DNA of 64,000 bases from Sphingosinithalassobacter tenebrarum. GTDB lineage: Bacteria; Pseudomonadota; Alphaproteobacteria; Sphingomonadales; Sphingomonadaceae. A model generated the notes under the pieces. It ran no database searches and had not been told where the DNA came from. It saw only the letters and a program-made list of their open reading frames with translations. Within the stretch, counting starts at the first letter, position 1, and each line of letters opens with the position of its first letter. The stretch covers positions 3,689,001-3,753,000 of the forward strand of contig NZ_CP049109.1 of the NCBI RefSeq assembly GCF_011057975.1, in the 5' to 3' direction. The position numbers and the translations under genes are program-made. Positions 1,027-26,242 of this stretch are shown piece by piece.

Positions 1027-1698
1027 TTACAGGCGAATGCCGACGCCGATGCCGAACACCAGCGGATCGAGGTCGATATCGACATTCTGCATGCCGGCCG
1101 CAGTGGTATCGATGTGCGCGGTCGTATCCATGTCGATGTACTTCACATCGAGGTTGAGAAAGACCGTCGGCGTGATGTCGATGTCGATGCCGGCCTGCAC
1201 TGCCCAGCCGAAGCTGTCGTCCATCTTCACCGTCGTCGGGCCGACCGCCGCTTCCAGGCTGTCCGAGGCTTCTTCGTTCCAGAAGATGGTATAGTTGACA
1301 CCCGCACCGACATAGGGACGGATCGCACCCTTCGGATTGAAGTGATACTGCGCGGTCAGCGTCGGCGGCAGCACCCAGGTCGAAGCCAGCTCGCCCAGCG
1401 AGCCGGTCGTTCCGGTAACACCGCTGGCGCTGTGCTTCGTGGTCGAAGCGATCAGCTCGAAGCCGATATTGTCGGTCGCCATATAGGTGAAGTCGATTTC
1501 GGGCATGACCGAATTGTCGACCGAGACCCCTTCGCCGGGAAAGGCCGGCATGATGCTGCTCGAATCCTCGTTCGGGGCAACAACGATGCCGCGTACCCGC
1601 AGCAGAACGTCGCCGGCCGCAATACCCGTATCCTGCGCCGCAGCCGGCGCGACAAGAACGGTGGCCGCCAACAGCGAAGCCGGAATCAACCCTTTCAT
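1027..1698 (-). CDS. ompW: OmpW-family outer membrane protein
   Basis: A 223-residue protein with a signal peptide cleaved after VAPAAAQ, followed by an eight-strand-barrel-like pattern. Recognisable OmpW elements are GDVLLRVRG near the mature N terminus, YHFNPKGAIRPYVGAGVNYT in the middle, SFGWAVQAGIDI, and a C terminus ending in GIGVGIRL, the usual membrane-insertion signature. OmpW proteins are small outer-membrane channels often induced by low oxygen or iron. The gene is divergent from hemN, and an Fnr-type box lies between them, consistent with oxygen control. Confidence 0.9.
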   Translation of the reverse strand: MKGLIPASLLAATVLVAPAAAQDTGIAAGDVLLRVRGIVVAPNEDSSSIMPAFPGEGVSVDNSVMPEIDFTYMATDNIGFELIASTTKHSASGVTGTTGSLGELASTWVLPPTLTAQYHFNPKGAIRPYVGAGVNYTIFWNEEASDSLEAAVGPTTVKMDDSFGWAVQAGIDIDITPTVFLNLDVKYIDMDTTAHIDTTAAGMQNVDIDLDPLVFGIGVGIRL

Positions 1699-1827: not shown

Positions 1828-3150
1828 ATGTGGAGCTATCACCCCGAACTGCTGGCGACTCCGGTCCCGCGCTATACGAGCTTTCCGACCGCCGCCGAGT
1901 TCGGCGACGCCGTCGGCCCGGCCGACCTTGCAAGCACGCTGGCAGCGGTCGAAGTCGACGCGCCGCTCTCGCTCTATCTGCACATCCCCTATTGCCATGA
2001 AATCTGCTGGTATTGCGGGTGCAACACCGGCGCGGCGAACCGTTCGGGCCGGCTTTCCGCCTATGTTCAGCGGCTGACCGAGGAAATCGACCTCGTCGCG
2101 CACCATCTGCGCGGAAACGGCAGAGTCGCCCGGATCGCACTGGGCGGCGGCAGCCCCAACGCGCTTTCGCCCGAACAGTTCGAGCTGGTGATGCGCCGCG
2201 TGCGCGATGCCTTTGCCTGCAACGACGCGATCGTCTCGATCGAAATCGATCCGCGCGGCTTCGACGCCCCCTGGGCCGAGGCGATGTGGCGCCAGGGCGT
2301 CACGCGCGCCAGCCTGGGCGTGCAGACCTTCGCGCCCGACATTCAGGCGGCGATCGGCCGCGTTCAACCGGCAGAACATATCGCGCGCACCGTTTCGCTG
2401 TTGCGCGGCGCGGGCATCGATTCGCTCAATTTCGACTTGATGTACGGCCTTCCCGGCCAGTCGGCCGAGATACTGGCGGACAGCATCGATCAGGCAATCG
2501 CCCTGCAACCGGACCGGCTGGCGGTGTTCGGCTATGCCCATGTGCCGCACCTGTTGCCGCGCCAGCGCCGGATCGATTCCAGCGCGCTGCCCGATGCATC
2601 GGCGCGATTCGATCAGGCGATCCAGGCGCACGGGCAACTGACCGCCGCTGGGTATCAGGCGGTCGGATTCGATCATTTCGCCCTGCCTGGCGACACGCTT
2701 GCCACTGCCGCGCGCGAAGGAACGCTGCGCCGCAATTTCCAGGGCTTCACCGAAGATCAGTCGGATATCCTGATCGGCCTCGGCGCGTCGGCGATCAGCG
2801 CCTTCCCCGGTGCGCTGCTGCAGAATGAGAAGAATGCCGGGCGCTGGCATCTGCGCGTCGGCAACGGATCGCTGGCGACCGCGCGCGGGTTGCGGCGCAG
2901 CGCCACCGACGCACAGCGCGGCCGTGCGATCGAACGGCTGCTGTGCGCCGGCGCGACCGATCTGGCGGGCCTGCCCGATCTTGCCGAGATCCGCGAGCGG
3001 TTGGCCCCCTTTGCCGAACGCAATCTGGTGAGCTGGGCCGGCACGCGGTTGACATTGGCGCCCGCATCGCTTCCCTATGCCCGTGCCGTGGCGGCGACGC
3101 TCGATCCCTATCGGCACAATAGCGGAGTACGTTTCAGCAGTGCTGTCTGA
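1828..3150 (+). CDS. hemN: Oxygen-independent coproporphyrinogen III oxidase
   Basis: A 440-residue radical SAM enzyme that converts coproporphyrinogen III to protoporphyrinogen IX without oxygen. The [4Fe-4S] motif CX3CX2C is at Cys56, Cys60 and Cys63, inside YLHIPYCHEICWYCGC. The GGGSPN SAM-binding motif and the DLMYGLPGQ segment follow in order, and the C-terminal HemN domain is present. Length matches the anaerobic HemN class rather than the shorter HemW (about 380). It starts at the ATG at 1828, and the Fnr box just upstream suggests induction at low oxygen. It overlaps the next small gene by 11 bases. Confidence 0.95.
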   Translation: MWSYHPELLATPVPRYTSFPTAAEFGDAVGPADLASTLAAVEVDAPLSLYLHIPYCHEICWYCGCNTGAANRSGRLSAYVQRLTEEIDLVAHHLRGNGRVARIALGGGSPNALSPEQFELVMRRVRDAFACNDAIVSIEIDPRGFDAPWAEAMWRQGVTRASLGVQTFAPDIQAAIGRVQPAEHIARTVSLLRGAGIDSLNFDLMYGLPGQSAEILADSIDQAIALQPDRLAVFGYAHVPHLLPRQRRIDSSALPDASARFDQAIQAHGQLTAAGYQAVGFDHFALPGDTLATAAREGTLRRNFQGFTEDQSDILIGLGASAISAFPGALLQNEKNAGRWHLRVGNGSLATARGLRRSATDAQRGRAIERLLCAGATDLAGLPDLAEIRERLAPFAERNLVSWAGTRLTLAPASLPYARAVAATLDPYRHNSGVRFSSAV

Positions 3151-3444: not shown

Positions 3445-4149
3445 ATGGAAACGATCCCGTCCCGCTGCGCCGAGTGCATGATCCGCGATAGCTCGCTCTG
3501 CGGAGCGATGCAGGACAATGAGCTCCACGCGCTGAGCAGCATTGCCCGCCGCAAGACCTTTCCCACCGGGCAGGTCGTTGCATGGTCGGGCGATCCCAAT
3601 TCGGTTTGCGCCAATGTCGTCGCGGGCGCCGTCAAGGTGACGGCCTCGACGCCCGACGGGCGCGAACAGATTGTCGGCCTGCTCTATCCCGGAGATTTCG
3701 TCGGCCATCCCTTTGCCGAAGACGCGACTCTAACCGTGACTGCGGTCGGCGAGACCGATCTCTGCCTCTTCCCGCGCGGTCCGTTCGAACGCACGCTTGG
3801 CGAGCATCGCACGATGGAGCGCAGGCTGCTCCAGCAGACGATGGAATCGCTGGGCGGCGCGCAGCAGCGCATTCTTTCGCTCGGGCGCAAGAACGCCGCC
3901 GAGCGCATCGCCAGCTTCCTGCTCGAAGTGCTCGACCGCACCCGGCCGGACCATGAAGACGGCCCTGCCGAAATCGACCTGCCGATCAGCCGCGGCGAAA
4001 TGGCCGACTATCTGGGCCTCACCATCGAAACCGTCAGCCGCCAGCTTACCCGGCTGCGAAAAGACGGGGTGATTGCGATGGCGAAAGGCGACCGTTGCTG
4101 CACGGTGCTTTCTCGCGAGCGGCTGGAGCTGATAGCCGATCCCGACTGA
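3445..4149 (+). CDS. fnrN: Fnr/FnrN-type oxygen-sensing Crp-family regulator
   Basis: A 234-residue Crp/Fnr-family activator. The N terminus has Cys8-X2-Cys11-X7-Cys19, the spacing of rhizobial FnrN, and Cys107 lies where E. coli Fnr has its fourth cluster ligand (Cys122), so a [4Fe-4S] oxygen sensor is expected. A cyclic-nucleotide-like beta-barrel spans about residues 25-120 and a long dimer helix about 125-165. The helix-turn-helix reads ISRGEMADYLGLTIETVSRQ, with the ETVSR recognition set (Glu195, Ser198, Arg199) that reads TTGA half-sites. It is the natural binder of the boxes at 1780, 4646 and 6521. Confidence 0.93.
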   Translation: METIPSRCAECMIRDSSLCGAMQDNELHALSSIARRKTFPTGQVVAWSGDPNSVCANVVAGAVKVTASTPDGREQIVGLLYPGDFVGHPFAEDATLTVTAVGETDLCLFPRGPFERTLGEHRTMERRLLQQTMESLGGAQQRILSLGRKNAAERIASFLLEVLDRTRPDHEDGPAEIDLPISRGEMADYLGLTIETVSRQLTRLRKDGVIAMAKGDRCCTVLSRERLELIADPD

Positions 4150-4722: not shown

Positions 4723-5433
4723 TCAGGCGGCGTCGACAAGGACGATTTCGCTGTCCTCGATCGCAGTAACGCGCAGCGTTTCGAGTTCCGCTATCGCCGC
4801 GCCGTCACGGGCGTTCACGCGCACCGCGCCGCCGGCATCGGCGAGTTCGACCGCACCCGTGGCGGGGACGAGATAGGCCTTGCGCTCGCTGCCCAGCCGA
4901 TATTCGGCGGTCTCGCCGGCCTTCAGCGTCGCGCCGACGACGCGCGCGTCGGTGCGGATCGGCAGCGCGTCGCCATCGCCGTCATAGCCACTGGCGAGCA
5001 CGACGAACTGCCCGGCCCGCTCGCCCCTGGGAAAGGGCTTGGCGCCCCAGGCGGGCTCCCCACCCTCGCGCGTCGGGATGATCCAGATCTGGAAGATGCG
5101 CGTGACTTCGTCTTCCATGTTATATTCGCTGTGCCGGATGCCGGTGCCCGCGCTCATCACCTGGACGTCGCCCGCCTCGGTGCGACCCGTATTGCCCAGG
5201 CTGTCCTGATGTGTGATCGCACCCTGACGGACATAGGTGATGATCTCCATGTCGCGATGCGGATGCGGCGGAAAGCCGGTGTTCGGCTGGATCGTATCGT
5301 CGTTCCACACGCGCAGATTGCCCCAATGGACACGCGCGGGATCGTGATAGCCCGCGAAGGAGAAATGATGCTTCGCGTGGAGCCAGCCGTGATTGGCGCC
5401 GCCGAGGCTTTCAAAGGTTCGCAGTTCGATCAT
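4723..5433 (-). CDS. Pirin family protein (bicupin)
   Basis: 236 residues with the full pirin N domain: FPPHPHRDMEIITYV carries two of the metal-binding histidines, and SLGNTGRTEAGDVQVMSAGTGIRHSE supplies the rest of the site including the last histidine. A second cupin follows (about residues 140-236). Bacterial pirins of this YhaK/YhhW size may act as quercetinases or redox-responsive regulators; the substrate cannot be told from sequence. It is divergent from a LysR gene across a 111-base gap, the usual pirin/LysR pairing, so that regulator probably controls it. Confidence 0.9.
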   Translation of the reverse strand: MIELRTFESLGGANHGWLHAKHHFSFAGYHDPARVHWGNLRVWNDDTIQPNTGFPPHPHRDMEIITYVRQGAITHQDSLGNTGRTEAGDVQVMSAGTGIRHSEYNMEDEVTRIFQIWIIPTREGGEPAWGAKPFPRGERAGQFVVLASGYDGDGDALPIRTDARVVGATLKAGETAEYRLGSERKAYLVPATGAVELADAGGAVRVNARDGAAIAELETLRVTAIEDSEIVLVDAA

Positions 5434-5544: not shown

Positions 5545-6453
5545 TTGGAACCCGGCACGCCCACCTATGATCAGTTGCGCACCTTTCTGGCAGTGGTCGA
5601 GACGGGCAGTTTCGGCGCGGCCGGGCGCGCGCTAAATCGCGCCGTCTCGGTGATCAGCTACGGCATCGCCAATCTCGAAGCGCAGCTCGGCGTCACGCTG
5701 TTCGATCGCGAGGGCAGCCGCACCCCGCGCCTCACCGAAGCGGGCAAGGCCGTCCTCGCCGAGGCACGCAGCGTCGCCGAGGGGATGGACGGACTGCGCG
5801 CGCGGGTGAAGGGGCTGCTCGAAGGGCTGGAGGCCGAAGTCAGCATGGCGGTCGACGTGATGCTGCCCAGCGAATGCCTCGGCCGCGTGCTGCGCGAATT
5901 TCGCGCCGCCTTCCCCACCGTGACGCTGCGGCTGCATGTCGAGGCGCTCGGCGCGGTCACCGCTTTGGTGCTCGATCGCACCGCCGGGATCGGGATCAGT
6001 GGGCCGCTCGCGGTCGGGCATGAGGGCGTGCAGACCGTCGCGGCGGGATCGGTGGCGATGGTGCCGGTCGCCGCGCCCGATCATCCGCTAGCGCGGCTCC
6101 ACGCCATCCCGCCCGGCGCCGCACGCGAGCATATCCAGCTCGTCCTCACCGATCGCTCCCCGCTGACCGAGGGGCAGGATTTCGCGGTGCTAAGCCCGCG
6201 CAGCTGGCGGCTCGCCGATCTCGGCGCGAAGCATGCGCTGCTGCGACAGGGCGTCGGCTGGGGCAACATGCCGCTGCCGATGATCGAGCCCGATCTGATC
6301 GACGGATCGCTGGTGCGGCTGGCGATGCCCGAGGAGCCCGCCGGCGCCTATCGCTTCCACGCGATCCACCGCCGCGATTCGCCGCCCGGCCCGGCGGCCT
6401 GCTGGCTGCGCGACCAGTTCGTCGCCGCAGGAAAGCACGATCCGATGCGTTAG
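5545..6453 (+). CDS. LysR family transcriptional regulator
   Basis: 302 residues, starting at a TTG because an in-frame TGA lies just before it and the LysR N terminus begins there. The winged HTH is residues 7-65 (YDQLRTFLAVVETGSFGAAG, then NLEAQLGVTLFDRE), and the periplasmic-binding-like effector domain follows from about residue 95. It is divergent from the pirin gene, and the intergenic T-N11-A palindrome supports control of pirin. It also lies directly upstream of, and co-directional with, the oxygenase operon, so a role there cannot be excluded. The effector is unknown. Confidence 0.9.
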   Translation: MEPGTPTYDQLRTFLAVVETGSFGAAGRALNRAVSVISYGIANLEAQLGVTLFDREGSRTPRLTEAGKAVLAEARSVAEGMDGLRARVKGLLEGLEAEVSMAVDVMLPSECLGRVLREFRAAFPTVTLRLHVEALGAVTALVLDRTAGIGISGPLAVGHEGVQTVAAGSVAMVPVAAPDHPLARLHAIPPGAAREHIQLVLTDRSPLTEGQDFAVLSPRSWRLADLGAKHALLRQGVGWGNMPLPMIEPDLIDGSLVRLAMPEEPAGAYRFHAIHRRDSPPGPAACWLRDQFVAAGKHDPMR

Positions 6454-6534: not shown

Positions 6535-6559
6535 TTCCCGAAGGCGGCTTCCGAGTCAC

Positions 6560-6581
6560 TAATCAACACCACTGTTGATTA
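6560..6581. promoter_or_regulatory. Perfect 9-4-9 inverted repeat before the oxygenase operon
   Basis: TAATCAACA-CCAC-TGTTGATTA, a perfect palindrome 21 bases before the first ATG. It is A+T rich and has no T-run, so a repressor or activator operator is more likely than a terminator. Size and symmetry suit a TetR- or GntR-type dimer; no such regulator gene is adjacent. Confidence 0.7.
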
Positions 6582-6602: not shown

Positions 6603-8459
6603 ATGCCTTTGACCCCCAGCGATTGCCCGCACGTCACGCGCGAGCAGATCGACGTGCTGCACGCCAGATATCTGGAAGAGCGCGACCGCCGGATCAAGAA
6701 GGATCACAACGACCAATATGTCGAAACCAGCGGCAAATGGGCAAAGATATATGAGGAAGACCCGTACAACCCAGTGATCCCGCGCAAGGCGATCACCGGC
6801 GAGACCGACGTCGTCATCCTCGGCGCGGGCTACTGCGGCATGATGGTCGCGACCGAGCTGAAAAAGGCCGGTTTCACCGATTTCTACAATGTCGATCACG
6901 GCGGCGATTTCGGCGGCACCTGGTATTGGAATCGCTATCCCGGCATCCAGTGCGACAATGACGCGCTCTGCTACATGCCGCTGCTCGAAGAGACCGGCTA
7001 CATGCCGTCGAAGAAATTCTGCGACGGCTACGAGATCCAGAATCACTGCCGGATCATCGCCGAAACCTTTGACCTCTATCCCCACGCCCTGTTCCACACG
7101 CTGATCAAGGAACTGCGCTGGGACCCCGAAATCAATCGCTGGCATGTCGGCACCAATCGCGGCGACGACATCAAGGCGCGGTTCGTGGTGCTGGCGATGG
7201 GCCCGCTCAACAAGCCCAAGCTGCCCGGCATTCCCGGCATCGATAGCTTCAAGGGCAAGCTCTTTCACACCGCGCGCTGGGATTATGACTATACCGGGGG
7301 CGAATGGCGCAATCCGGTGCTGAGCAAGCTCAAGGACAAGAAGGTCGCGATCGTCGGCACCGGCGCCACCGCAGTGCAGGTCGTCCCCTATCTCGGCAAG
7401 TACGCCAAGCAGGTCTATGTCATCCAGCGCACGCCCTCTTCGGTCGATGCGCGCGACAACCGGCCGACCGACCCCGAATGGTATAATTCGCAAAAGCCCG
7501 GCTGGCAGGAAGAGCGCATCCGCAACTTCCACCACGCCGCGATGGAGCGACTGGCGCCCGGCGAACCCGACATGATCCAGGACATCTGGACCGAGATCAG
7601 CCGCAATGTCGCCGCCGAGCTGGAGGCCGAAGGCTGGCCCGAAACGACTCCCGAGGAATATGCCGCGCGGCGCGAAGTGGTCGATTATCGCGTGATGGAA
7701 CGGCTGCGCCAGCGCTGCGAGGAAATCGTCGACGATCCCAACACTGCCGAGGCACTCAAGCCCTATTACCGCTTCCTGTGCAAGCGACCCTGCTCGAACG
7801 ACGATTATTATCCGACCTTCAATCGCCCGAACGTCGAACTGATCGACGTCGCCGCGACACAGGGTGTCGAGCGGATGACCGAGAAGGGCTTCGTCGCCAA
7901 CGGCAAGGAATATGAAATCGACTGCATGATCTTCGCTTCGGGATACGAAGTGACCAACGATCTCGATCGCCGCTGGGGCATCGACCGGATCGAAGGACGC
8001 GACGGCCTGTCGATCTACGACTATTGGCGCGAGGGCTTTCAGACCTTCCAGGGGATGATGGCGCATAATTTCCCCAACATGTTCTTCACCGGCTTCACGC
8101 AGGCCGGGGCGAACGCGACCAATTCGAAGACCTTCATCGATCAGGGGCGCCACATCGGCTATATCGCCAGCGAAGCGCTCAAGCGCGGCGCAGTGACGGT
8201 CGAGCCGACGCAGGAAGCGCAGGACGCCTATATCCGGCACCTGCGCTCGGTGGCGGTCGACAACTCGGAATTCGTCAACGAATGCACGCCGAGCTACTTC
8301 AACAACGAAGGCGACCAGACCAAGAAGCGCTTCATCTTCGGCGAACCGTGGGGCGAAGGCTATTACGCCTTCGAGGACATGATCGCCGCCTGGCGCAACG
8401 AAGGCGAACTCGCCGGTCTCGAACTCACCAGCGACCCCCAATTGCAGGCCGCCGAATAA
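6603..8459 (+). CDS. Baeyer-Villiger-type flavin monooxygenase
   Basis: 618 residues, a class B flavoprotein that would use FAD, NADPH and O2 to turn a ketone into an ester or lactone. An FAD Rossmann motif (LGAGYCG, residues 73-79) and an NADPH motif (VGTGATA, 251-257) flank the Baeyer-Villiger fingerprint FKGKLFHTARWD (216-227), which fits FxGxxxHxxxW(P/D) exactly. Length is at the long end of the family, with an N-terminal extension of about 65 residues as in cyclopentadecanone or steroid monooxygenases. It is the first gene of a seven-gene operon. The substrate is not determinable from sequence; a cyclic or polycyclic ketone is plausible. Confidence 0.9.
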   Translation: MPLTPSDCPHVTREQIDVLHARYLEERDRRIKKDHNDQYVETSGKWAKIYEEDPYNPVIPRKAITGETDVVILGAGYCGMMVATELKKAGFTDFYNVDHGGDFGGTWYWNRYPGIQCDNDALCYMPLLEETGYMPSKKFCDGYEIQNHCRIIAETFDLYPHALFHTLIKELRWDPEINRWHVGTNRGDDIKARFVVLAMGPLNKPKLPGIPGIDSFKGKLFHTARWDYDYTGGEWRNPVLSKLKDKKVAIVGTGATAVQVVPYLGKYAKQVYVIQRTPSSVDARDNRPTDPEWYNSQKPGWQEERIRNFHHAAMERLAPGEPDMIQDIWTEISRNVAAELEAEGWPETTPEEYAARREVVDYRVMERLRQRCEEIVDDPNTAEALKPYYRFLCKRPCSNDDYYPTFNRPNVELIDVAATQGVERMTEKGFVANGKEYEIDCMIFASGYEVTNDLDRRWGIDRIEGRDGLSIYDYWREGFQTFQGMMAHNFPNMFFTGFTQAGANATNSKTFIDQGRHIGYIASEALKRGAVTVEPTQEAQDAYIRHLRSVAVDNSEFVNECTPSYFNNEGDQTKKRFIFGEPWGEGYYAFEDMIAAWRNEGELAGLELTSDPQLQAAE

Positions 8460-8525
8460 GCGTGCGGGCGCGGCGCGGCGTGCCAGACGCCGGTCGCGCC
8501 TTCCCGCTTGGCGAAGGAGGATGCC

Positions 8526-9893
8526 ATGAACGAAGTCAAAGCTTTCCCGACGCTCTCGGAAACCCAGTCCGAAGCCGTCGTCATTCCCGTCGAAGCCTAT
8601 GTCTCGCCCGAATATGCCCGCGCCGAGCGCGACAAATTGTGGCGCAAGACCTGGCTGCAGGCCGGCCGGCTGGAGGATATCCCGAATGTCGGCGATTACA
8701 TCACCTACGACATTCTGGACGACAGCGTGCTGATCGTCCGCACCACGCCCGACGAAGTGAAGGCCTATCGCAATGTCTGCACCCATCGCGGGCGGCGGCT
8801 GGTCGACACGCCCGAGGGCATGCGCAACGCGCGCGGCAACGCACGCAAGTTCGTCTGCGGCTTCCATGCCTGGACCTTCGATATCGACGGCAGCGCCAGC
8901 GGCATCCGCCACAAGGAGGATTGGGGCGTCGGCCTCTGCTCCGAAGTGACGCGGCTGGGCGAAGTCAATCTCGACACCTGGGCGGGCTTCCTGTGGATCA
9001 ATCTCGACAAGGATGCCGAGCCGCTGCGCGACTATCTCGAGCCTGCCGCGTCCGCACTCGAGCCGTTCCAGCTCCAGAATATGCGTCCGCGCTGGCGCTG
9101 CTGGACCAAGTTCAACTGCAACTGGAAAGTCGCGCTCGAAGCGTTCAACGAAACCTATCACGTCGCGGGGACGCATCCCGAATTCAACGCGTTCGGCGAT
9201 TTCACCGGCTGGGGCCGCCAGCAGGGCCGGCACAGCCATATCGGCTATGACGCGCCCAAGGGGCTCGAGGCGAACAAGGCCAAGCTGCGCCTTGGCGCGG
9301 GCGATCCGCGCATTTCGACGGCGCAGATGCAGAAATATACCTGGGAAGGCGTCAACACCAACACGACGCAGACTTTGGTCGATGTCGCCCAGACCCTGCC
9401 CGATGTGCTGCCCGAAGGGACGCCCGCGGCCGAAGTGTCCAAATACTGGCTCGACACCGCGCGCAAGATCGACGCCGATCGCGGCGTCTTCTGGCCCGAA
9501 GTCGATGCCGAAACGGCCGGCAAGAGCGGCACTGCGTGGCAGATCTTCCCCAATCAGCAGATCGGCCACGCGGTCAACAACATGCTCTGCTATCAGGCGC
9601 GCCCGTGCGGATACGACCCCGACCAATGCTATTTCGAAGTCGCGGTCTATGAGCTCTATCCCGAAGGCGAAGCGCCCGAGACCGAATGGGCCTATGCCGA
9701 TCCGTCCGATTTCCCGCATGTTCTGAAACAGGATTTCAGCAACATGGCCGCCGTGCAGCAGGGGATGAAGATGGACGGCTATCGCGGCAACATTCCCAAT
9801 CCCAAGTCCGAAGGCGCGGTGATCAGCCTGCACCGCAATCTCGCCAATTACATGGGCACCGGCTTCCCGGTCGCGCTGGAAGAACCGAAATGA
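8526..9893 (+). CDS. Rieske oxygenase alpha subunit (first of three)
   Basis: 455 residues, starting at the ATG at 8526 with GGAGG five bases before. The Rieske [2Fe-2S] ligands are Cys85-His87 and Cys111-His114, with 23 residues between His87 and Cys111 instead of the usual 15-17. The catalytic Fe(II) site is His212 and His217 in EAFNETYHVAGTH, with Glu209 at the position of the electron-bridging Asp of naphthalene dioxygenase. No beta subunit, ferredoxin or reductase gene is nearby, so electrons must come from elsewhere. It overlaps the next gene by 4 bases and resembles it closely, indicating a tandem duplication. Confidence 0.92.
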   Translation: MNEVKAFPTLSETQSEAVVIPVEAYVSPEYARAERDKLWRKTWLQAGRLEDIPNVGDYITYDILDDSVLIVRTTPDEVKAYRNVCTHRGRRLVDTPEGMRNARGNARKFVCGFHAWTFDIDGSASGIRHKEDWGVGLCSEVTRLGEVNLDTWAGFLWINLDKDAEPLRDYLEPAASALEPFQLQNMRPRWRCWTKFNCNWKVALEAFNETYHVAGTHPEFNAFGDFTGWGRQQGRHSHIGYDAPKGLEANKAKLRLGAGDPRISTAQMQKYTWEGVNTNTTQTLVDVAQTLPDVLPEGTPAAEVSKYWLDTARKIDADRGVFWPEVDAETAGKSGTAWQIFPNQQIGHAVNNMLCYQARPCGYDPDQCYFEVAVYELYPEGEAPETEWAYADPSDFPHVLKQDFSNMAAVQQGMKMDGYRGNIPNPKSEGAVISLHRNLANYMGTGFPVALEEPK

Positions 9894-11368
9894 ACGGCCC
9901 CGTCGGCAAGGCGGTCTCGGACGATTTGTCCGAGGCCGTCACCTACCCGGTCGATGCGTTCATCAGCCGCGAATATGCGCAGGCCGAGCCCGAACGGCTC
10001 TGGTCGAAAGTGTGGCAGCAGGCCGGGCGGGTCGAGGAGCTCAAACAGGTCGGCGACTATATCACCTATAATATCTGCCACGATTCGATCCTGATCGTGC
10101 GCGATACGCCGGAGACCCTGCGCGCCTTCCACAATGTCTGTCCGCATCGCGGGCGGCGGCTCGTCGGCAATAACACCGGCGGCGGGCCGAAGACGGTGGC
10201 GCAGGATACCGGCGCGCACAGCGCGAAGGGCAATCGCCTGCGCTTCAGCTGCAACTATCACGCCTGGACCTTCGATCTGGACGGCAGCGCCGAACATATC
10301 CCCGATGCCGAGGATTGGGGCGGCATGCTCGACCATGTCTGCACCAGCCTGACGCCGGTGCAGGTCGATACCTGGGGCGGCTGGATCTGGATCAACATGG
10401 ATATGGAGGCGGGGCCGCTGCGCGAATGGCTCGAGCCTGCCGCCAGCCTGCTCGATCCGTTCCAGTTCGAGGCGATGCGCTATCGCTTCCGCCAATGGGG
10501 CATTTTCGACTGCAACTGGAAAGTCGCGCTCGAGGCCTTTCTCGAAGCCTATCATGTCCAGGGGACGCATCCCCAGCTGATGAAATATGGCGACTTCTAT
10601 TCGTTCAGCCGCGTCATCGGGATGCACAGCCAGACCGGGTTCGACAGCAAGGAAAAGCGCGAGGCTTCGGCTGCCGCGACCAGCGTCCATCGTGCCGCGG
10701 GCGAGGACGATCCGCGCTACACCATCGCGAAGATGCAGGCCGAATTCTGGGAAACCATCGGCGGCAGCACCACCGAAACGCTGGTGAAGGCGGCACAGCG
10801 GCTGCCGGAGGAACTGCCCGAAGGCACGCCCGCCGCCGAGGTGCATCGCCACTGGCTCGAATCCGCCCGCCGCGACGATGCCGCGCGCGGCGTCGACTGG
10901 CCTGAAATCAGCGACAGGGAAATGGCGGCGGCCGGACTCGCGGTCGCGCTCTTCCCGAACATGAACCTGATCCCCGGGCCGACCTTCTCGCTATATTATC
11001 GCGTCCGCCCGTACGGTACCGATCCTGACAAATGCATCTTCGAAGCCGTCGCGCTCGATCGCTTTCCCGAAGGGGAAGAACCCGAGACCGAATGGACCTA
11101 TGCCGAACAAGATCTGTCGCAATGGCCGCACGTCATCGCGCAGGACATTTCGAACATGGTCGAAGTGCAGCGCGGCTATAAGTCGCAGGGGTTCAAGGGC
11201 AACTTGCCCAATCCCTGGCAGGAACGGAAAGTCACCAATCTCCACCGCAATCTCGCCCGTTATATGGACGCCGGGGCGCCGACGCCGATCCCGGGACCAA
11301 GTGACGCTACGGAACACTCCCGATTGAGCGAAATCAAAGAGGGTGCGCAAAATGCTGAGCATAGTTAG
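9890..11368 (+). CDS. Rieske oxygenase alpha subunit (second of three)
   Basis: 492 residues, paralogous to the upstream gene, with ATG overlapping its stop. Rieske ligands are Cys84-His86 and Cys121-His124, separated by 34 residues, far longer than usual because of a Gly/Thr/Lys-rich insertion (about residues 93-117). Catalytic-domain ligands His222 and His227 sit in EAFLEAYHVQGTH, with Glu219 at the bridging position. The C terminus again ends in IPNPW/LHRNLARYMD-like sequence shared with the first copy. It may form a hetero-oligomer with its neighbour or act on the next intermediate; neither can be settled from sequence. Confidence 0.92.
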   Translation: MNGPVGKAVSDDLSEAVTYPVDAFISREYAQAEPERLWSKVWQQAGRVEELKQVGDYITYNICHDSILIVRDTPETLRAFHNVCPHRGRRLVGNNTGGGPKTVAQDTGAHSAKGNRLRFSCNYHAWTFDLDGSAEHIPDAEDWGGMLDHVCTSLTPVQVDTWGGWIWINMDMEAGPLREWLEPAASLLDPFQFEAMRYRFRQWGIFDCNWKVALEAFLEAYHVQGTHPQLMKYGDFYSFSRVIGMHSQTGFDSKEKREASAAATSVHRAAGEDDPRYTIAKMQAEFWETIGGSTTETLVKAAQRLPEELPEGTPAAEVHRHWLESARRDDAARGVDWPEISDREMAAAGLAVALFPNMNLIPGPTFSLYYRVRPYGTDPDKCIFEAVALDRFPEGEEPETEWTYAEQDLSQWPHVIAQDISNMVEVQRGYKSQGFKGNLPNPWQERKVTNLHRNLARYMDAGAPTPIPGPSDATEHSRLSEIKEGAQNAEHS

Positions 11369-11413
11369 CATCTGAGTCGGGAATGGGCCGGCTCAAATGG
11401 AGAGGAGCCACCC

Positions 11414-12259
11414 ATGACCGTCACCACGCGGACCCGCCTGAAGGCCGAGCCGATCAAGGAAAAGATCGGCAGCCGCATATCGAATACCAAGGAAGAATTG
11501 CTCTCGGGCGATCTGACCGACGAAATCAACGAACTGCTCGAAGCGCGCGGCGTACTGGTTTTCAAGAAGATCGGTTTCACCGACGAGGAACAGATCCAGT
11601 TCACCAATCTGCTCGGCGGCAACGCCACCGAGATCGGCGTCAAGGGCGGCGCGGTCTTTTCCATCTCGCTCGACGAGAAGGAAAACGACAAGAGCACGAT
11701 CGAATATCTCAAGGGCTCGCTGTTCTGGCATATCGACGGTTCGATGAACCCGGTGCCGATCCGCGGATCGGTGCTGTCGTCGAAAGTGCTGCCCACCTGG
11801 GGCGGCAACACCGAATTCGCCAATTGCTACGCCGCGTACGACGATCTGCCCGAGGAGAAGAAGGCCGAGATCGACGATCTGCGCGTCAAGCACAGCATGT
11901 GGGTCTCACAGCTCTATCACTGCCCCGAACCGACGCTCGCGCAGCTTGAGGACTGGCAAGAAAAGGGTTCGGCCGAACTACCGCTCGTCTGGCACCATAA
12001 ATCGGGCCACAAGTCGCTCGTTCTGGGCAACACCGCGCACAAGGTTCTGGGCAAGAGCGACGAGGAAAGCGCGCGCATCCTGCACGGCCTGCGGGAACAC
12101 GCGACCAGCGAACCCTACACTTACGCCCATGAGTGGGAAGTCGGCGACGCGGTGATGTGGGACAATACCGGCACGCTGCACCGCGCCCGCCCCTACGATC
12201 CCGATTGCGGGCGTCTTCTCCGCCGTACGATCCTGCTGGGCGACGAGCCCTTTTCCTGA
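11414..12259 (+). CDS. TauD/TfdA-family Fe(II)/2-oxoglutarate-dependent dioxygenase
   Basis: 281 residues with a GGAG ribosome site before the ATG. The Fe(II) facial triad is His106-X-Asp108 in LFWHIDGS and His256 in TLHRARPYD, and the 2-oxoglutarate-binding arginine is Arg270 or Arg271. The order and the length match the TfdA/TauD family, which hydroxylates substrates next to ether, sulfonate or carboxyl groups. Its position between Rieske genes indicates a step in the same pathway. Substrate is unknown. Confidence 0.88.
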   Translation: MTVTTRTRLKAEPIKEKIGSRISNTKEELLSGDLTDEINELLEARGVLVFKKIGFTDEEQIQFTNLLGGNATEIGVKGGAVFSISLDEKENDKSTIEYLKGSLFWHIDGSMNPVPIRGSVLSSKVLPTWGGNTEFANCYAAYDDLPEEKKAEIDDLRVKHSMWVSQLYHCPEPTLAQLEDWQEKGSAELPLVWHHKSGHKSLVLGNTAHKVLGKSDEESARILHGLREHATSEPYTYAHEWEVGDAVMWDNTGTLHRARPYDPDCGRLLRRTILLGDEPFS

Positions 12260-12287
12260 TCGCGGCTGACTGGAGAGGAACAAGATC

Positions 12288-13694
12288 ATGGCTGATTACG
12301 ACGCAAAGGAAGCGCTGGCCGCCGTCAACCCGTTCGCGGTTCGCGATCCCGCGATGGTGCCCGCTTCGCGCTATTACGATCCCGCCTTCTACGCGCTCGA
12401 GAACGAGCATCTCTGGCCGCATGTCTGGCAAATGGCGTGCCGGCTCGAGCAGATCCCCAATGTCGGCGACTGGGTGGAATATACCAATGTCGGCAAATCG
12501 GTGATCGTCGTCCGCACCAAGAGCGGTGTGAAGGCCTATCACAATCATTGCCGCCATCGCGGCGTGCCGCTGACCGAAGGCGGTCACGGCAATTGCAAGA
12601 CCAAGGGCTTTATCTGCCCGTTCCACGGCTGGCGCTGGAACATGGATGGCGAAAACACCTTCGTCTATGGTCGCCAGCTGTTCGAGGAGGACAAGCTCGA
12701 CCCCGCCGAACTCGCGCTGCGCGAAGTGCGCGTCGAAACCTGGGGCGGCTGCGCCTTCATCAATCACGACAAGGATGCGCCTTCGTTCCGCGAGAGCATG
12801 GGCGATGTTCTGCCCGCGCTCGAAGCGCGCGGCATGGACAAGCTGCGCGTCGAATGGTGGTTCGCTACCGAGCTGCCCGCCAACTGGAAGATCGCGATGG
12901 AAGCCTTCATGGAAGGCTATCACGTGATGAAGACGCACCCGCAGCTCCAGCACGCCCAGCCGAGCCTGTATAATGCGCGCTACGGCAACGATACCGGCGG
13001 GCTGGGTCCGCTGATCAATCCCAATCTCGATACCAAAGGCAATATCGCCGAGGCCATCGAGACGATGGAATTGCTCAACGAAGGCATGTCGGGCCTGGTC
13101 CACGCCAAGGAAGTGGCGATCGCCAAGCAGTTCGCCGATGTCGATCTGCCCGAGGACCCCCAGCAGGGCGTGATGGCCTGGTACGGCATGGTAATGACCG
13201 CCATCACCGAGCAGCTTCGCGCCAAGGGCGAGGATGTTCCCGATGTCGCCAAGGTGATGGTCGAGCATCCGGTGGAAGCGGTGACCTACCTCTTCCCCAA
13301 TTATTTCCTGCTCACCTATTTCACCTCGATGGCGTCGTATCGCATCCGCCCGACCGGGCCGGAGACGTGCCGCTTCGAAATCTGGTCGCTGACGCAATAT
13401 CCCGAAGGCGAGGAGCCCGAGGTTCCGCAGGAGCCGACCGTGCTGCCCTATGACAGCCAGGATTTCCCGATGATCCCGCGTCAGGATTATTCGAACATCC
13501 CGCTGCAGCAGAAAGGCCTGCACTCGACCGGCTTCGATTTCATGCGGCTGGCCAAGAGCGTCGAGGGGCTGATCTCCAACTATCAGCGCCTGATCGACGG
13601 ATACATCGCCGGCGCCGAGCCGGAGAAGCTCGCCGCCGCCACCCGCAAGCTGGGTGGCAATTTCGACGGCAAGATATTCGATCTCGACCTTTAA
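12288..13694 (+). CDS. Rieske oxygenase alpha subunit (third of three)
   Basis: 468 residues, more distant from the other two. Rieske ligands are Cys88-His90 and Cys110-His113 with a 19-residue spacing, close to the normal range. The catalytic ligands His212 and His217 are in EAFMEGYHVMKTH, again with Glu209 at the bridging position. The C-terminal half has a region (about residues 245-320) with many Glu and Met residues not seen in the first two. Its own GGAG ribosome site and a 28-base gap keep it in the operon. No partner subunit or electron donor is encoded nearby. Confidence 0.92.
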   Translation: MADYDAKEALAAVNPFAVRDPAMVPASRYYDPAFYALENEHLWPHVWQMACRLEQIPNVGDWVEYTNVGKSVIVVRTKSGVKAYHNHCRHRGVPLTEGGHGNCKTKGFICPFHGWRWNMDGENTFVYGRQLFEEDKLDPAELALREVRVETWGGCAFINHDKDAPSFRESMGDVLPALEARGMDKLRVEWWFATELPANWKIAMEAFMEGYHVMKTHPQLQHAQPSLYNARYGNDTGGLGPLINPNLDTKGNIAEAIETMELLNEGMSGLVHAKEVAIAKQFADVDLPEDPQQGVMAWYGMVMTAITEQLRAKGEDVPDVAKVMVEHPVEAVTYLFPNYFLLTYFTSMASYRIRPTGPETCRFEIWSLTQYPEGEEPEVPQEPTVLPYDSQDFPMIPRQDYSNIPLQQKGLHSTGFDFMRLAKSVEGLISNYQRLIDGYIAGAEPEKLAAATRKLGGNFDGKIFDLDL

Positions 13695-13723
13695 CCCCCG
13701 CTGTTCCTGGAGAGGAATTGAAC

Positions 13724-15052
13724 ATGCAAAAGAATGACATGATCGTGATCAGCACCGACGATCACATTTGCGAACCGCCGACCCTGTTCGACAACCAGCT
13801 TTCGGGCGAACTGCTCGAAAGCGCGCCCAAGCTGCGCGTCGATCCGCGCGGCAAGAATTACTGGGAATATCAGGGCAATATCCGCCCGTCAGTCGGCCTC
13901 AACGCCGTCGTCGGCCGTCCGTTCGAGGAATATGGCATGGAGCCGACGTCGCTCGACCAGCTGCGCGACGGCTGCTGGAGCGTCGATGCGCGCATCGACG
14001 ACATGGACGTCAACGGCATTGCCGCCTCGATGTGCTTCGGCAATTCGATCGGCTTCGACGGGCAGACCTTTCACAAGGCGCCCGACAAGAAGCTCGCGCT
14101 GCGCCACATGCAGGCCTATAACGACTGGCATTACGACGAATGGTGCATGGCCTATCCGGGCCGCTTCATCCCGCTCGGCATCCTGCCGACCTGGGACGCG
14201 CAAGCCGCCGTCGACGAAGTCCATCGCCTTGCGAAAAAGGGCTTTCACTGCGTCTCGATGAACGAGAACCCGACGGTGCAGGGCCTGCCGAGCATCCACA
14301 ATCCCTATTGGGACCCGATCTACAAGGCGATCGTCGAGAACGACATGACGATCGCGCTGCACATCGGCTCCGGCAACCCGGCGCCGCACGCGTCGGAGGA
14401 AACCCCGATCGAGGCATGGATCTCCACCATGCCGCTCTCGGTCGCGCAGGGCGTGTCGGACTGGCTGCAGCTCGAGGAACTGCACCAATATCCCGACATG
14501 CGGATCATCGTCTCCGAAGGCTCGATCGGCTGGGTGCCGTATCTGATGGAACGCGCCGACTTCTCCAACTGGCGCCACAAGGCGTGGACCAAGTCGCGCT
14601 TCCAGGACATCAAGCCGAGCGAGCTGATGAAGCGCCACTTCGCGCATTGCTTCCTCTGGGACCCCTATGGCCTCAAGAACCTGAGCGAGATCGGCGAGGA
14701 TAATGTCACCTATGAAGTCGATTATCCGCATTCGGACGCGCTGTGGCCCGACGCCGCCGAACTGCTCTGGGAGCAGGTCAAGGGTCTCACCGACGAGCAG
14801 ATCGACAAGGTGACGCACCTCAACGCGATCAAGTGGCTGCGCCACGACGCGATGTTCGAGCACAACAAGCGCGAGGACCTGACCGTCGGCGCCTGCCATG
14901 CCCGCGCCAAGGCCAAGGGCGTCGACACCGCGCCGAAATCCTCGGGCGGCGCCGTGCCGATGACCGAGGATCGTCCGGTCACGTCGGGTGACGTGATGCA
15001 GATGTTCCGCGACCATGCGGAACGCCGCGCCAAGGAGATGGCGGAGGCCTGA
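13724..15052 (+). CDS. Amidohydrolase-family metal-dependent hydrolase/decarboxylase
   Basis: 442 residues starting at the ATG at 13724, which has AGAGG eight bases before. The N terminus reads STDDHICEPP, the D-x-H-type metal motif of the amidohydrolase-2 (ACMSD/LigW-like) family, and a TIM-barrel pattern follows: FIPLGILPTWD, then MTIALHIGSGN and the late VDYPHSDALWP acid motif. This family often cleaves C-C or C-N bonds, for example decarboxylation or ring-fission-product hydrolysis, so it likely acts after the oxygenases. The exact reaction is unknown. Confidence 0.87.
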   Translation: MQKNDMIVISTDDHICEPPTLFDNQLSGELLESAPKLRVDPRGKNYWEYQGNIRPSVGLNAVVGRPFEEYGMEPTSLDQLRDGCWSVDARIDDMDVNGIAASMCFGNSIGFDGQTFHKAPDKKLALRHMQAYNDWHYDEWCMAYPGRFIPLGILPTWDAQAAVDEVHRLAKKGFHCVSMNENPTVQGLPSIHNPYWDPIYKAIVENDMTIALHIGSGNPAPHASEETPIEAWISTMPLSVAQGVSDWLQLEELHQYPDMRIIVSEGSIGWVPYLMERADFSNWRHKAWTKSRFQDIKPSELMKRHFAHCFLWDPYGLKNLSEIGEDNVTYEVDYPHSDALWPDAAELLWEQVKGLTDEQIDKVTHLNAIKWLRHDAMFEHNKREDLTVGACHARAKAKGVDTAPKSSGGAVPMTEDRPVTSGDVMQMFRDHAERRAKEMAEA

Positions 15053-15083
15053 GGCCTCCGCCACCGGATTGCAGGAGATTCCG

Positions 15084-15905
15084 ATGAACGGATTTTCTTT
15101 CGACGCGATCGCTGCCGATTACCATTGGCAGCTTTCGCTGATCACCTTGGTGTCGATCTTCGTGGTGAATTTCATCGCCAAGAAGATCGCGGTAGCGCTG
15201 GTGCCGACGCTGCGCGAGGCGCGGGCCGCCAATCATGAAGCCTATGCGACGAAGATGCAGAAGGCCTCCTATGCGGCCAACCAGAAATGGAACCGCAAAT
15301 GGGGCGTCGTCTTCTTCGCGGTGATCTTCGGGCTGATCATTCCCTTCTGCGTCACTGTCGAAGCACAGCCCTGGTGGCGCTATCTGGTCGACATGTTCGT
15401 CATCCTGATGGTGTACGACTTCTTCTACTATCTCGCCCATCGATTCCTCTTCCACGATGAAGGCTTTTTCGGCGGGCCGCTGCTGTGGGTGCATGCCGTG
15501 CATCACCGCCAGCACAATCCCTGCCGCGGCGATTCGAGCTTCATCCATCCGATCGAAGTGGCGCTCGGTCTGTCTCTCTATGTCGGCACGGTGTTCCTGC
15601 TGTCGCGCTTCATGGGCGACTTCCATGTCGTGACGATCGTGATCACCTGGATCGCCTTTTCGGAGATCAATCTGCACAATCACGATCTGTGGACCGCGGA
15701 CAAATTCCCGTTCCGCTATGCGAACACGATGGCGAAGATGCATCACAACCATCATGCCCGCTTCACCGGGGGCAATTTCGCCACGATATCGCTGTTCTAC
15801 GACTGGCTGTTCGGCACGCTCGACTATGGCGACAAGCCGCGCAAGGCCGGCAGCGTGAAACGCCGCCGCAAGGCGCAGGTCAGTCCTCAGAACGGCGCTT
15901 CCTGA
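15084..15905 (+). CDS. Sterol desaturase / fatty acid hydroxylase family membrane protein
   Basis: 273 residues with a start supported by GGAG eight bases upstream. Membrane helices are seen around residues 17-37, 74-92, 102-118 and 158-194. The eight-histidine di-iron cluster is present: His119-x4-His124, His137-x2-His140-His141, His198/His200, and HHNHH at 220-224. These proteins hydroxylate or desaturate lipid-like substrates. As the last gene of the operon it is followed by a palindromic terminator-like element. It suggests that the pathway substrate is hydrophobic or polycyclic, but that is inference. Confidence 0.88.
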   Translation: MNGFSFDAIAADYHWQLSLITLVSIFVVNFIAKKIAVALVPTLREARAANHEAYATKMQKASYAANQKWNRKWGVVFFAVIFGLIIPFCVTVEAQPWWRYLVDMFVILMVYDFFYYLAHRFLFHDEGFFGGPLLWVHAVHHRQHNPCRGDSSFIHPIEVALGLSLYVGTVFLLSRFMGDFHVVTIVITWIAFSEINLHNHDLWTADKFPFRYANTMAKMHHNHHARFTGGNFATISLFYDWLFGTLDYGDKPRKAGSVKRRRKAQVSPQNGAS

Positions 15906-16275
15906 TCACGCTCGACATTCGTGCGACGGAAAAGAAGAGGCGGGACCTTAAGGTTCCGCCTCTTCCGCGTCCGCTTGCCCCGGCCCACGCCCTGACAGCC
16001 GCATCCATGCCGGGAAGCGGATACGCCAAATGTCGTTTCCACCCGGTCGGAAAGCGCTCACTCGTCCATCAGCATCAACCAGTCGACCCGCTCGCCACCC
16101 ATGGGTAGCGAATGCCTTTCGCTGCGCCCACTGCGGCGGATACTCGTCGCATGAAAACAGTGACGAGAAACGACGACGCGGCTTCGTCGAACCCAGCGAA
16201 TGGATGCTGGCCAGCTAACCGGCAAGTGGCGCGTCTGCTGGAATAGGCCGCGCCCGGATGGAGAGACCCGCGAAC
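15906..16275. other. Intergenic stretch between the oxygenase operon and the HEPN pair
   Basis: 370 bases with no gene I can support. It holds the palindrome at 15935-15964 and otherwise unremarkable sequence. A 62-codon open frame (16030-16218) has no ribosome site and no family features, so I leave it out. No repeat or tRNA remnant is visible. Confidence 0.6.
15935..15964 (+). terminator. Palindrome ending the oxygenase operon
   Basis: A 30-base palindrome with 15-base arms meeting at AAGAGGCGGGACCTT; the arms pair with a single G-U exception. It begins 30 bases after the last operon stop. There is no extended T-run, so termination is likely but not certain. Confidence 0.5.
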
Positions 16276-21804: not shown

Positions 21805-22308
21805 TTAATCGGGCTCGATCAGACCGTGTTCGCGCAATGCGGAAAGCAGCTGCGCCACGACCGTGCGCGCTTCGGTGTCAATCGTTGCCCCCCCGGAAGG
21901 ATCCGCGATCGCCGGCTGCCGCGCGCCGACCGTCTGCACACCGCCGACCAGGAGACGCCCGTGAACCGTGCCGGTTTCCCACGCGCCACCGCGAAACCGC
22001 GCAGTCCCGGGATTTTCCGTCACCCAGGCCGTCATTCCCTCTCGCGGCGCGACGAAGCGCCAGCCGCCTTCGGTCCAGCAGGCAATCGCGCCGGGATGCT
22101 CCGCCCAATCGCCCGTGGGCTCGGTTCCGACGACCCAGCATTCGCCGACGCCGGGCGCGGCCGGCGGAGCATCGATCCCCGCCGCCGTCACCATCGCCTG
22201 GCAAACGATGTCGATCCGCATCAGCGCTTCATTATGAGACATTTCCTTTTGCGCCTGCCCCGCTTGCAACAGCGGAAGGGAAAGGCGCGGCGTGGCAAAT
22301 TCGCTCAT
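21805..22308 (-). CDS. DUF2793 domain protein at the end of the GTA cluster
   Basis: 167 residues, ATG overlapping the stop of the gp15-type gene (ATGA) with GGAG upstream. The sequence follows the DUF2793 pattern: TPRLSLPLLQAGQAQKEMSHNEAL, then the GECWVVG and GAIACWTEGGWRFVAPREG segments. This family is found at the end of phage and GTA tail operons and is probably a tail-fibre or receptor-contact protein. The last 20 residues are helical and may form a trimer handle. It is the last gene of the GTA operon, and its stop is 107 bases from the ompA start. Confidence 0.85.
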   Translation of the reverse strand: MSEFATPRLSLPLLQAGQAQKEMSHNEALMRIDIVCQAMVTAAGIDAPPAAPGVGECWVVGTEPTGDWAEHPGAIACWTEGGWRFVAPREGMTAWVTENPGTARFRGGAWETGTVHGRLLVGGVQTVGARQPAIADPSGGATIDTEARTVVAQLLSALREHGLIEPD

Positions 22309-24482: not shown

Positions 24483-24493
24483 CCCACTCTCCC

Positions 24494-24891
24494 CTACCCG
24501 CGCACGCGCCAAGCGCCGATCACCGGCCAGGGAACCGGCCCCGGACGCGCCACCACGCGGCGCAGCATCGCATCGGCATGAATCACGCCGTCCGCATCCT
24601 GTATCGCCAGGTGCAGCTGTCCCGGCCCCATACGGCACAGCAGCAGGTCCCCCCGCCGCGCATCGGCGGCGCGGACCAGCCCGGAGGAATCGAGCAGCGC
24701 GACAACGCGCGCTGCGTCGGCGCTGCGCATCGCATAGCCGCTGGGCACCGGGCCGCCATGCCCCTCCGCCCGCATCGCCAGCGCCGCCAGTCCGACGCAA
24801 TCGAGCCCCGTGGCGCAATCGCGGCCATGCAGGCGAAACCGGGTGCCCAGCGCGGCCCGCGCGGCGGCAAGCGCCGCCTCCCCGTCTTCAT
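24494..24891 (-). pseudogene. GTA gp14 NlpC/P60 cell-wall peptidase, apparent frameshift
   Basis: The body reads LGTRFRLHGRDCATGLDCVG (catalytic Cys in the DC motif), then LAIQDADGVIHADA with the catalytic histidine region, up to the stop at 24494. The frame is open upstream to 24907 but has no ATG before 24775, which would cut off the catalytic cysteine. The natural ATG (24891-24889, overlapping the gp13 stop as elsewhere in this operon) is out of frame by one base. Adding one G to the G-run at 24880-24883 would join them into a 132-residue protein. Sequencing error, a real mutation or an unusual start are all possible. Confidence 0.75.
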
Positions 24892-25697: not shown

Positions 25698-25731
25698 CGC
25701 CTGCTCCATCGGTTGTCGCTATCAAAGACGC

Positions 25732-26082: not shown

Positions 26083-26102
26083 CCGGCCGCTACATCTTCC
26101 AC

Positions 26103-26234
26103 CGTCCCCCCTGCGCAGGCAGGGGCCTATTTCTGTGCAGTGCACATGACCGGCTGACACGGAAGCGCTGATGCCAGTGTCCGGCTGGTCGCGACACGGG
26201 ACGGACATGGGCCCTGCCTGCGCAGGGGCGACGG
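26103..26234. repeat. Palindromic intergenic repeat, copy 1
   Basis: A pair of inverted arms, CCCCTGCGCAGGCAGGGGCC near 26107-26127 and its complement at 26209-26228, enclosing about 80 bases, with CGTC/GACGG at the outer edges. The same arms occur at 60123-60216, so this is a dispersed element of the REP/MITE kind often seen in sphingomonad genomes. Confidence 0.75.
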
Positions 26235-26242
26235 ACGGAGCC

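Follow-up and report, generated by a model that had tools for sequence, protein, structure and literature searches.

Analysis of a 64,000-nt window of the Sphingosinithalassobacter tenebrarum genome (contig NZ_CP049109.1, positions 3,689,001 to 3,753,000; coordinates below are positions in this window, numbered from its first letter, unless a genome or contig is named) revealed a seven-gene oxygenase operon whose promoter carries two operator-like sites, an FNR-type palindrome and, 43 bp away centre to centre, a second palindrome of predicted IclR type. On balance, we favour the interpretation that this is a catabolic operon, that all of its products are O2-dependent, that it acts on a bulky, probably terpenoid- or steroid-like ketone, and that it is under dual FNR-type and IclR-type control. 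The original prediction, made without database searches, had recognized the oxygenase operon itself, which stands, and had overlooked the two operator-like sites, the neighbouring cbb3/hemN/fnr locus and a paralogous gene island elsewhere in the genome.

The operon encodes, in order, a type I Baeyer-Villiger monooxygenase (BVMO), two Rieske oxygenase alpha subunits (R1 and R2), a TauD/TfdA-type 2-oxoglutarate (2OG) Fe(II) dioxygenase, a third Rieske alpha subunit (R3), a PF04909 protein and a PF04116 family protein (Table 1). All seven open reading frames (ORFs) lie on the + strand with no other gene among them and with intergenic gaps of 66, -4, 45, 28, 29 and 31 bp, and for each product at least one match exceeds the curated Pfam cut-off; ORFs, gaps and Pfam matches bear out the single same-strand operon, joined by an overlap and short gaps, that had been predicted. 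The mechanical first starts of R1, R2, the PF04909 gene and the PF04116 gene are probably too early, and later ATGs were picked by eye; genes named from their first residues are likewise by-eye calls, unless a Pfam or NCBIfam score is given. Terminator-like matches between 6400 and 16300 were at chance level (7 versus 8.1 expected, one of them on the + strand within the operon), and a sigma-70 promoter scan of the same interval gave no match (2.7 expected), which fits an activator-dependent promoter without proving one. The GC content of the operon (0.616) differs from that of the window (0.648), a difference that is not decisive, and recent acquisition judged from composition was not accepted.

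Type I BVMOs are recognized by Rossmann motifs and an FxGxxxHxxxW fingerprint, and the first product belongs to this type, with the motifs GAGYCG and IVGTGATAV and the fingerprint FKGKLFHTARWD intact. Among NCBIfam models it scores highest with PtlE (NF045818), an enzyme of sesquiterpenoid biosynthesis, and its identification as the PtlE neopentalenolactone D synthase was rejected at 633.7 bits, under the curated cut-off of 1100. R1, R2 and R3 all carry the CxH/CxxH, H-x4-H and QD-x-SN motifs of alpha subunits, the QD aspartate presumably being, by homology, the third ligand of the facial triad. The adjacent R1 and R2 are paralogues sharing 50.5% identity, whereas R3 shares only 29-30% with either, and for all three the best NCBIfam model is GbcA (scores of 122, 113 and 102 bits; cut-off 670). 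The ORF and Pfam scan found no beta subunit, ferredoxin or reductase inside the operon, in agreement with the original prediction, and a naphthalene-type alpha/beta dioxygenase system, with its own ferredoxin and reductase, is not what the operon encodes. In the 2OG enzyme, HID together with the distal His and Arg is retained, and the second-best NCBIfam model is PtlD (NF045815), of which it is no member (84.8 bits against a cut-off of 550). The PF04116 protein has His-rich motifs at residues 119-124, 137-144, 198-200 and 220-224, and no relative of it was found in the PDB at E <= 1.

The sixth product had been taken for an amidohydrolase, and this assignment is revised: the PF04909 protein is probably an oxygenase of the amidohydrolase-related dinuclear oxygenase (ARO) type. 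Its PF04909 domain scores 86.9 bits (cut-off 26.4), and all six positions that ligate the two metals in AibH2 (three His, three carboxylates) are retained, as is the acidic second-shell residue (D342 position). D12, H14, H213, E265, D333, H336 and D338 are invariant in 23/23 and 52/52 rows of two overlapping alignments, and among proteins of solved structure DitZ and PtmU3 are by far the closest to it. A small Rieske protein was not found beside the gene, the nearby Rieske matches being only the three large oxygenases; in the AibH2-like ARO subset, such a protein adjoins about 90% of the members (PMC10401708, section 7). With the PF04909 product read as a seventh oxygenase, all seven products are therefore predicted to use O2. 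The 4331 relatives found at E <= 1e-30, a group named amidohydrolase in public records, are candidate dinuclear oxygenases, the ligands having been checked in the aligned rows, and the partner genes linked to members of the group would narrow the search for substrates. On two Rhodococcus plasmids (L130, 7780-8016; L131, 16231-16449), a hypothetical protein of 72-78 aa directly follows the PF04909 gene and is a possible partner.

The pattern TTGAY-N4-RTCAA occurs at 12 sites genome-wide, compared with one for a reversed-pattern control. Four of these boxes fall within 14 kb: one at the probable ccoN promoter, one ahead of hemN, one between fnr and the pirin-like gene (4646) and one in the operon promoter, a clustering reached in 1 of 20,000 simulations by a test that was chosen post hoc. 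The 14-mer of the operon promoter recurs identically in the interval that separates a cydA-like from a cydD-like gene (708 and 392 bits, each below its model's cut-off). Apart from one box before a Rieske gene, described below, the others are found within genes or in intergenic positions with no obvious connection. Among relatives, the box precedes 7/7 readable BVMO orthologues and 16/23 PF04909 genes; of the seven unboxed PF04909 genes, four stand behind another same-strand gene and three are of the island type. Five of the 16 boxed genes, close mutual relatives from several Novosphingobium (L018, L020, L021, L032, L033), are located elsewhere with the box 96-98 bp upstream and with no cco genes or other oxygenases in the flanks examined, and the box is thus not merely a by-product of the cco neighbourhood. 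A cruder count based on predicted starts found the box in 21/35 PF04909/BVMO windows versus 3/206 other genes, with 4/8 for ccoN, 5/10 for OmpW and 2/28 for the remaining operon genes. One box is situated 125 bp upstream of a gene for another Rieske oxygenase of 392 aa (L124, G000:C1:2105258-2105271; 153.5 bits to the GbcA model), and low-oxygen control of oxygenases may extend beyond the seven-gene operon.

With <= 2 mismatches allowed, the genome contains the 20-bp core of the second palindrome just twice (control 0), in the operon BVMO promoter and directly before BVMO2 of the paralogous island, where the FNR-type box is absent. Across the family, 13/249 genomes carry the palindrome at <= 1 mismatch; it precedes a BVMO in six (G000, G117, G361, G364, G444, G477), and in the other seven it lies away from any BVMO and was counted as chance. 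An IclR-family gene of the island is present in 6/6 of the former versus 4/243 of the others (hypergeometric 6.7e-10, confounded by shared island inheritance), and degenerate palindrome copies (3, 3, 4 and 5 mismatches) stand before this gene in 4/4 members examined. In 264 kb of own DNA, the reversed palindrome gave no match at <= 5 mismatches and the true palindrome gave three extra matches at 5 mismatches in unrelated places; the weakest iclR-promoter copy therefore carries little weight. From the co-occurrence and the degenerate self-promoter copies, we infer that the IclR protein may be the binder of the palindrome. As the palindrome is common to the operon and the BVMO2 operon and occurs in degenerate form before iclR, the three would constitute one regulon.

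The expectation on both sites in BVMO promoters was written down before a sample of 30 loci from 195 genomes was inspected, which comprised 20 orthologues, nine paralogues (57-67%) and one partial locus. In the orthologues, the box was present in 20/20, the palindrome (<= 2 mismatches) in 18/20 and both at a spacing of 38-48 bp in 18/20, counts that are not independent, all 20 coming from one genus and some being near-identical (e.g., L150 and L152). Six of these promoters agreed with previously analysed loci in both the sequence and the placement of the sites and were treated as identical to them; the 14 new ones gave 14/14 for the box, 12/14 for the palindrome and 12/14 for both, with the spacing in the predicted range of 39-44 in 10 of these 12. 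The two orthologue promoters without the palindrome (G606, G668) belong to genomes that also lack a PF04909 gene above 64% identity, and the palindrome was likewise not found at <= 2 mismatches in the plasmid copy of Sphingobium sp. WTD-1. As predicted, the box was found in 0/9 paralogue promoters. The expectation was thus borne out for the most part, the exception being the palindrome in the paralogues (2/9).

The operon lies close to cbb3-oxidase genes. Upstream of the window are ccoN (774.6 bits, cut-off 583) and homologues of ccoO, ccoP, ccoG and ccoI, and the FNR-family regulator encoded between these genes and the operon is the candidate reader of the FNR-type box; we take its C8, C11, C19 and C107 to be the four candidate Cys ligands. 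All or some of the cco/OmpW/hemN/fnr genes, in varying order, flank the cluster in L014, L015, L019, L023, L024, G117 and WTD-1. Among 20 genomes of the genus of G117 with a BVMO orthologue at >= 75% identity, plus our own genome, the BVMO gene is found on the same contig as ccoN in 15/21, at 2.6-12.3 kb in 14 of the 15 and at 251 kb in G568; they are on different contigs in five, and one has no ccoN match.

The distribution of the system is patchy. The PF04909 protein (E <= 1e-40) occurs in 12/296 order-level genomes and the BVMO orthologue (>= 77% identity) in 3/296, own genome included in both counts, compared with 182/296 for ccoN. In a set of 21 named loci, G117 and the WTD-1 plasmid, the PF04909 gene (>= 62% identity) is accompanied by one or more further operon homologues, likewise at >= 62%, at 12 loci (L014-L017, L019, L023-L026, L034, L044/L045, L055; several contigs are short); six of the seven genes occur together in L017, L044/L045 and L055, all seven in none, and the PF04116 gene in L019 only (63% identity). 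L055 is a WTD-1 plasmid typed as conjugative (NZ_CP119128.1, 82680-114005), on which the oxygenase set is accompanied by cco genes, hemN and a helix-turn-helix regulator; this copy is broken up by IS256 elements and an oleate hydratase gene, and its BVMO is truncated (match over 390/618 residues).

Within our own genome, six of the seven operon genes have paralogues scattered over a 180-kb island (2.74-2.92 Mb), with identities of 62% (BVMO), 62% (R1), 49 and 51% (R2), 59% (2OG), 72% (R3) and 67% (PF04909). The island is rich in acyl-CoA (coenzyme A) dehydrogenase-like (called by eye), thiolase- and ligase-like genes, and also contains a KstD-like gene (score under the cut-off), genes for a P450 and a Fer2 ferredoxin, and a ChsH2-like OB-fold gene with a thiolase gene. 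The BVMO paralogue, BVMO2, heads an operon with genes for a Rieske protein, a thiamine pyrophosphate (TPP) enzyme and an aldehyde dehydrogenase. Plasmids from Mycobacterium branderi and from Rhodococcus sp. USK13 carry this grouping together with TauD, and Sphingobium RAC03 has it with no aldehyde dehydrogenase annotated. The BVMO-Rieske-TPP module (L043, L059, L061, L062) was seen in sphingomonads and actinobacteria, mostly with a short-chain dehydrogenase/reductase and an aldehyde dehydrogenase and in places with TauD or P450, and resembles an uncharacterised degradation module.

Table 1. Features of the oxygenase operon, its promoter and its surroundings (window positions unless a contig is named)
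Feature	Position	Strand	Remarks
Type I BVMO	6603-8459	+	618 aa; Pfam/NCBIfam
Rieske oxygenase alpha subunit R1	8526-9893	+	455 aa; CTH/CGFH, H-x4-H, QDFSN
Rieske oxygenase alpha subunit R2	9890-11368	+	492 aa; 4-bp overlap with R1
TauD/TfdA-type 2OG Fe(II) dioxygenase	11414-12259	+	281 aa; HID and distal H, R
Rieske oxygenase alpha subunit R3	12288-13694	+	468 aa
PF04909 protein, predicted ARO	13724-15052	+	442 aa
PF04116 sterol-desaturase/fatty-acid-hydroxylase family protein	15084-15905	+	273 aa; His-rich motifs
16-nt inverted repeat after last gene, possible transcript end	15934-15965	+	
FNR-type palindrome TTGACGAAGGTCAA	6521-6534	+	Centre 6527.5; TTGAC-N4-GTCAA variant
22-bp palindrome TAATCAACA-CCAC-TGTTGATTA, predicted IclR-type operator	6560-6581	+	Centre at the start site expected for FNR class II
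IclR-family gene of island	G000:C1:2875370-2876182		HTH_IclR 40.5 bits, cut-off 22
OmpW-family outer-membrane protein	1027-1698	-	154.8 bits, below cut-off of 287
hemN, oxygen-independent coproporphyrinogen III oxidase	1828-3150	+	FNR-type box at 1780
FNR-family regulator	3445-4149	+	Best model FnrL, 206.8 bits, cut-off 300; C8, C11, C19, C107
LysR regulator	5545-6453	+	Not assigned to operon; divergent pair with pirin-like gene, 4723-5433

Elsewhere in the window (22305-34839), tail, portal and DUF3168-like genes form a gene-transfer-agent-like run, as judged by eye from first residues.

We propose that the seven O2 enzymes would oxygenate the periphery of a bulky, probably isoprenoid ketone and open its rings or side chains, with ferredoxins, reductases and CoA-dependent steps borrowed from elsewhere in the genome. 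The degradation would be continued by two enzymes encoded in the BVMO2 operon, the TPP enzyme and the aldehyde dehydrogenase, together with ligase and dehydrogenase genes nearby and in the island. Of the hydrophobic polycyclic, steroid-like or terpenoid-like substrates originally suggested, a bulky one of isoprenoid type is reasonable, in view of PtlE as the best BVMO model, DitZ and PtmU3 as nearest relatives and the island paralogues. The genes, their catalytic residues, the two sites and the conservation and linkage of all these can be read directly from sequence, whereas the oxygenase activity of the PF04909 protein, the pairing of regulators with sites, the direction of control, the start site and the class of substrate are inferences. 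At low oxygen, the FNR-type regulator would act from -41.5, placing the start site at about 6569-6570, the centre of the palindrome, and ACTAAT at 6558-6563 may serve as a weak -10 element. An IclR-type repressor bound to the palindrome, over the start site, would repress sterically and be released when the substrate is present, and the geometry of the two sites would thus fit an AND gate with low oxygen and inducer as its inputs. A variant Fnr site centred 41.5 bp ahead of a start site has been described in Dinoroseobacter shibae (PMC5398030). For Sphingopyxis granuli, induction in the absence of oxygen is reported for cydA and for the distal part of the cco operon (PMC6472365). More tentatively, and at somewhat less than even probability, the FNR-type sensor of the high-affinity terminal oxidases would also switch on seven oxygenases, gated by IclR, such that scarce O2 is spent on a recalcitrant isoprenoid, and the set would travel with the cbb3/hemN/fnr locus between genera, in one case on a conjugative plasmid.

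Several alternatives bear on this proposal. One that we consider unlikely, albeit the most serious, is that the box is read by another CRP-family regulator or that FNR represses, the linkage to cbb3/hemN/fnr reflecting a shared insertion place and the operon being an ordinary aerobic catabolic one. The sign of control is unreadable from sequence, the operon's own site is the TTGAC-N4-GTCAA variant, and Fnr, Anr and Dnr sites overlap in sequence, with Fnr-family proteins also able to repress (PMC5398030). However, the identical 14-mer in the cydA/cydD interval and the similar sites 48 bp upstream of hemN and immediately ahead of the probable ccoN start (the mechanical ccoN start lies 9 bp before its box, and homologues begin about 20-30 codons later) argue for FNR, a position about 42 bp ahead of a start site at the palindrome fits activation, and the five boxed PF04909 genes with cco-free flanks argue against a shared insertion place. 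Somewhat less probable still is that the PF04909 protein has a single metal and acts as a common hydrolase, such as a lactonase that opens what the BVMO forms, or as a decarboxylase, leaving six oxygenases only; its dinuclear ligands are complete, including the acidic residue that is ascribed to binuclear members only (PMC7782822), and no other solved structures come near DitZ and PtmU3 in similarity.

It is quite improbable, in our view, that the operon remodels an isoprenoid of the cell itself (hopanoid, carotenoid or similar) as a low-oxygen adaptation and is not catabolic. A promoter and neighbourhood of low-O2 type, the PF04116 membrane hydroxylase and the absence of any transporter or CoA gene from the operon would suit such a role, but six paralogues are spread through an island of acyl-CoA dehydrogenase-, thiolase- and ligase-like genes, the palindrome is shared with the BVMO2 operon, and the BVMO orthologue is confined to 3 of the 296 order genomes. 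We regard it as equally improbable that the LysR protein is the operon-specific regulator, although its gene is the nearest regulatory one, on the same strand and ending 149 bp upstream of the operon: the divergent pirin-LysR pair is kept in 10/24 related loci, LysR was found in 8 of 13 congener regions (20 kb around pirin) and operon or cco genes in none, and loci L014-L054 contain no LysR homologue at E <= 1e-25, so that LysR was rejected on grounds of synteny. The palindrome was present in only 2/9 paralogue promoters, contrary to the prediction, and the idea that BVMO paralogues carry it mostly failed.

Oxygenase operons are usually thought of as aerobic, and here a promoter pairs an oxygen-scarcity site with a pathway-specific operator. 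The occurrence of both sites in 18 of the 20 orthologues, and of the box in none of the paralogues, makes it testable whether oxygenase capacity is raised as O2 falls; the pairing suggests that the cell produces these oxygen-hungry enzymes during oxygen shortage, provided that a suitable compound is available.

As the original prediction had supposed, no described pathway with this gene set turned up in searches of the open-licence PMC literature, which likewise yielded no published case of a BVMO/Rieske/ARO operon as an FNR target. The dit cluster for abietane diterpenoids in Pseudomonas and Paraburkholderia likewise combines a Rieske oxygenase with further genes and acts on a tricyclic terpenoid; ditA1 and ditA2 are the alpha and beta subunits. 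Its gene set, with ditA1 and ditA2, differs from that of the operon (PMC10710418), and it was rejected as the operon's pathway. A tomatine/steroidal-saponin pathway was also rejected: the BVMO homologues on the plasmids of Sphingobium RC1, TomTYG64 and TomTYG65 are only 42-44% identical, the single plasmid region viewed has another context, and the main text of the RC1 paper contains no word beginning monooxygenase, oxygenase or amidohydrolase. The bile-salt pathway of Chol11 was set aside as well, the main text of the cholate paper containing neither 'amidohydrolase' nor 'Baeyer'; that paper describes three Rieske monooxygenases acting on a steroid, L023 is a metagenome-assembled genome labelled Novosphingobium sp. 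Chol11, and a steroid link through Chol11 is neither shown nor excluded.

Among individual enzymes, CntA and GbcA (carnitine/glycine betaine monooxygenase) resemble R1-R3 in having Rieske and mononuclear iron motifs and no beta subunit, whereas their substrate differs; the Glu in the bridging position of R1-R3 presumably parallels that of CntA/GbcA. PtlE and PtlD of pentalenolactone biosynthesis provide the best BVMO and second-best 2OG models, with both operon proteins below cut-off. DitZ of Rhodococcus rhodochrous (PDB 8uyr, Mn-substituted) is a relative of the PF04909 protein for which no paper was found in the open-licence PMC literature. PtmU3, a non-heme di-iron hydroxylase of diterpenoid biosynthesis (PDB 6omp), is 23% identical to the PF04909 protein; it is biosynthetic and takes CoA-ligated substrates (PMC7782822), whereas the PF04909 protein sits in a multi-oxygenase operon. 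The AibH2/SfbO-type AROs share its ligand set and mostly stand beside a small Rieske protein (PMC10401708), unlike the seven-gene operon. Finally, the FNR (FnrL/Anr) regulons of cbb3, cyd and hemN are alike here in site type, neighbours and four-Cys regulator. The superfamily of every enzyme is a known one, this combination with its regulation was not met in the literature searched, and low-oxygen control is the surprising and testable part.

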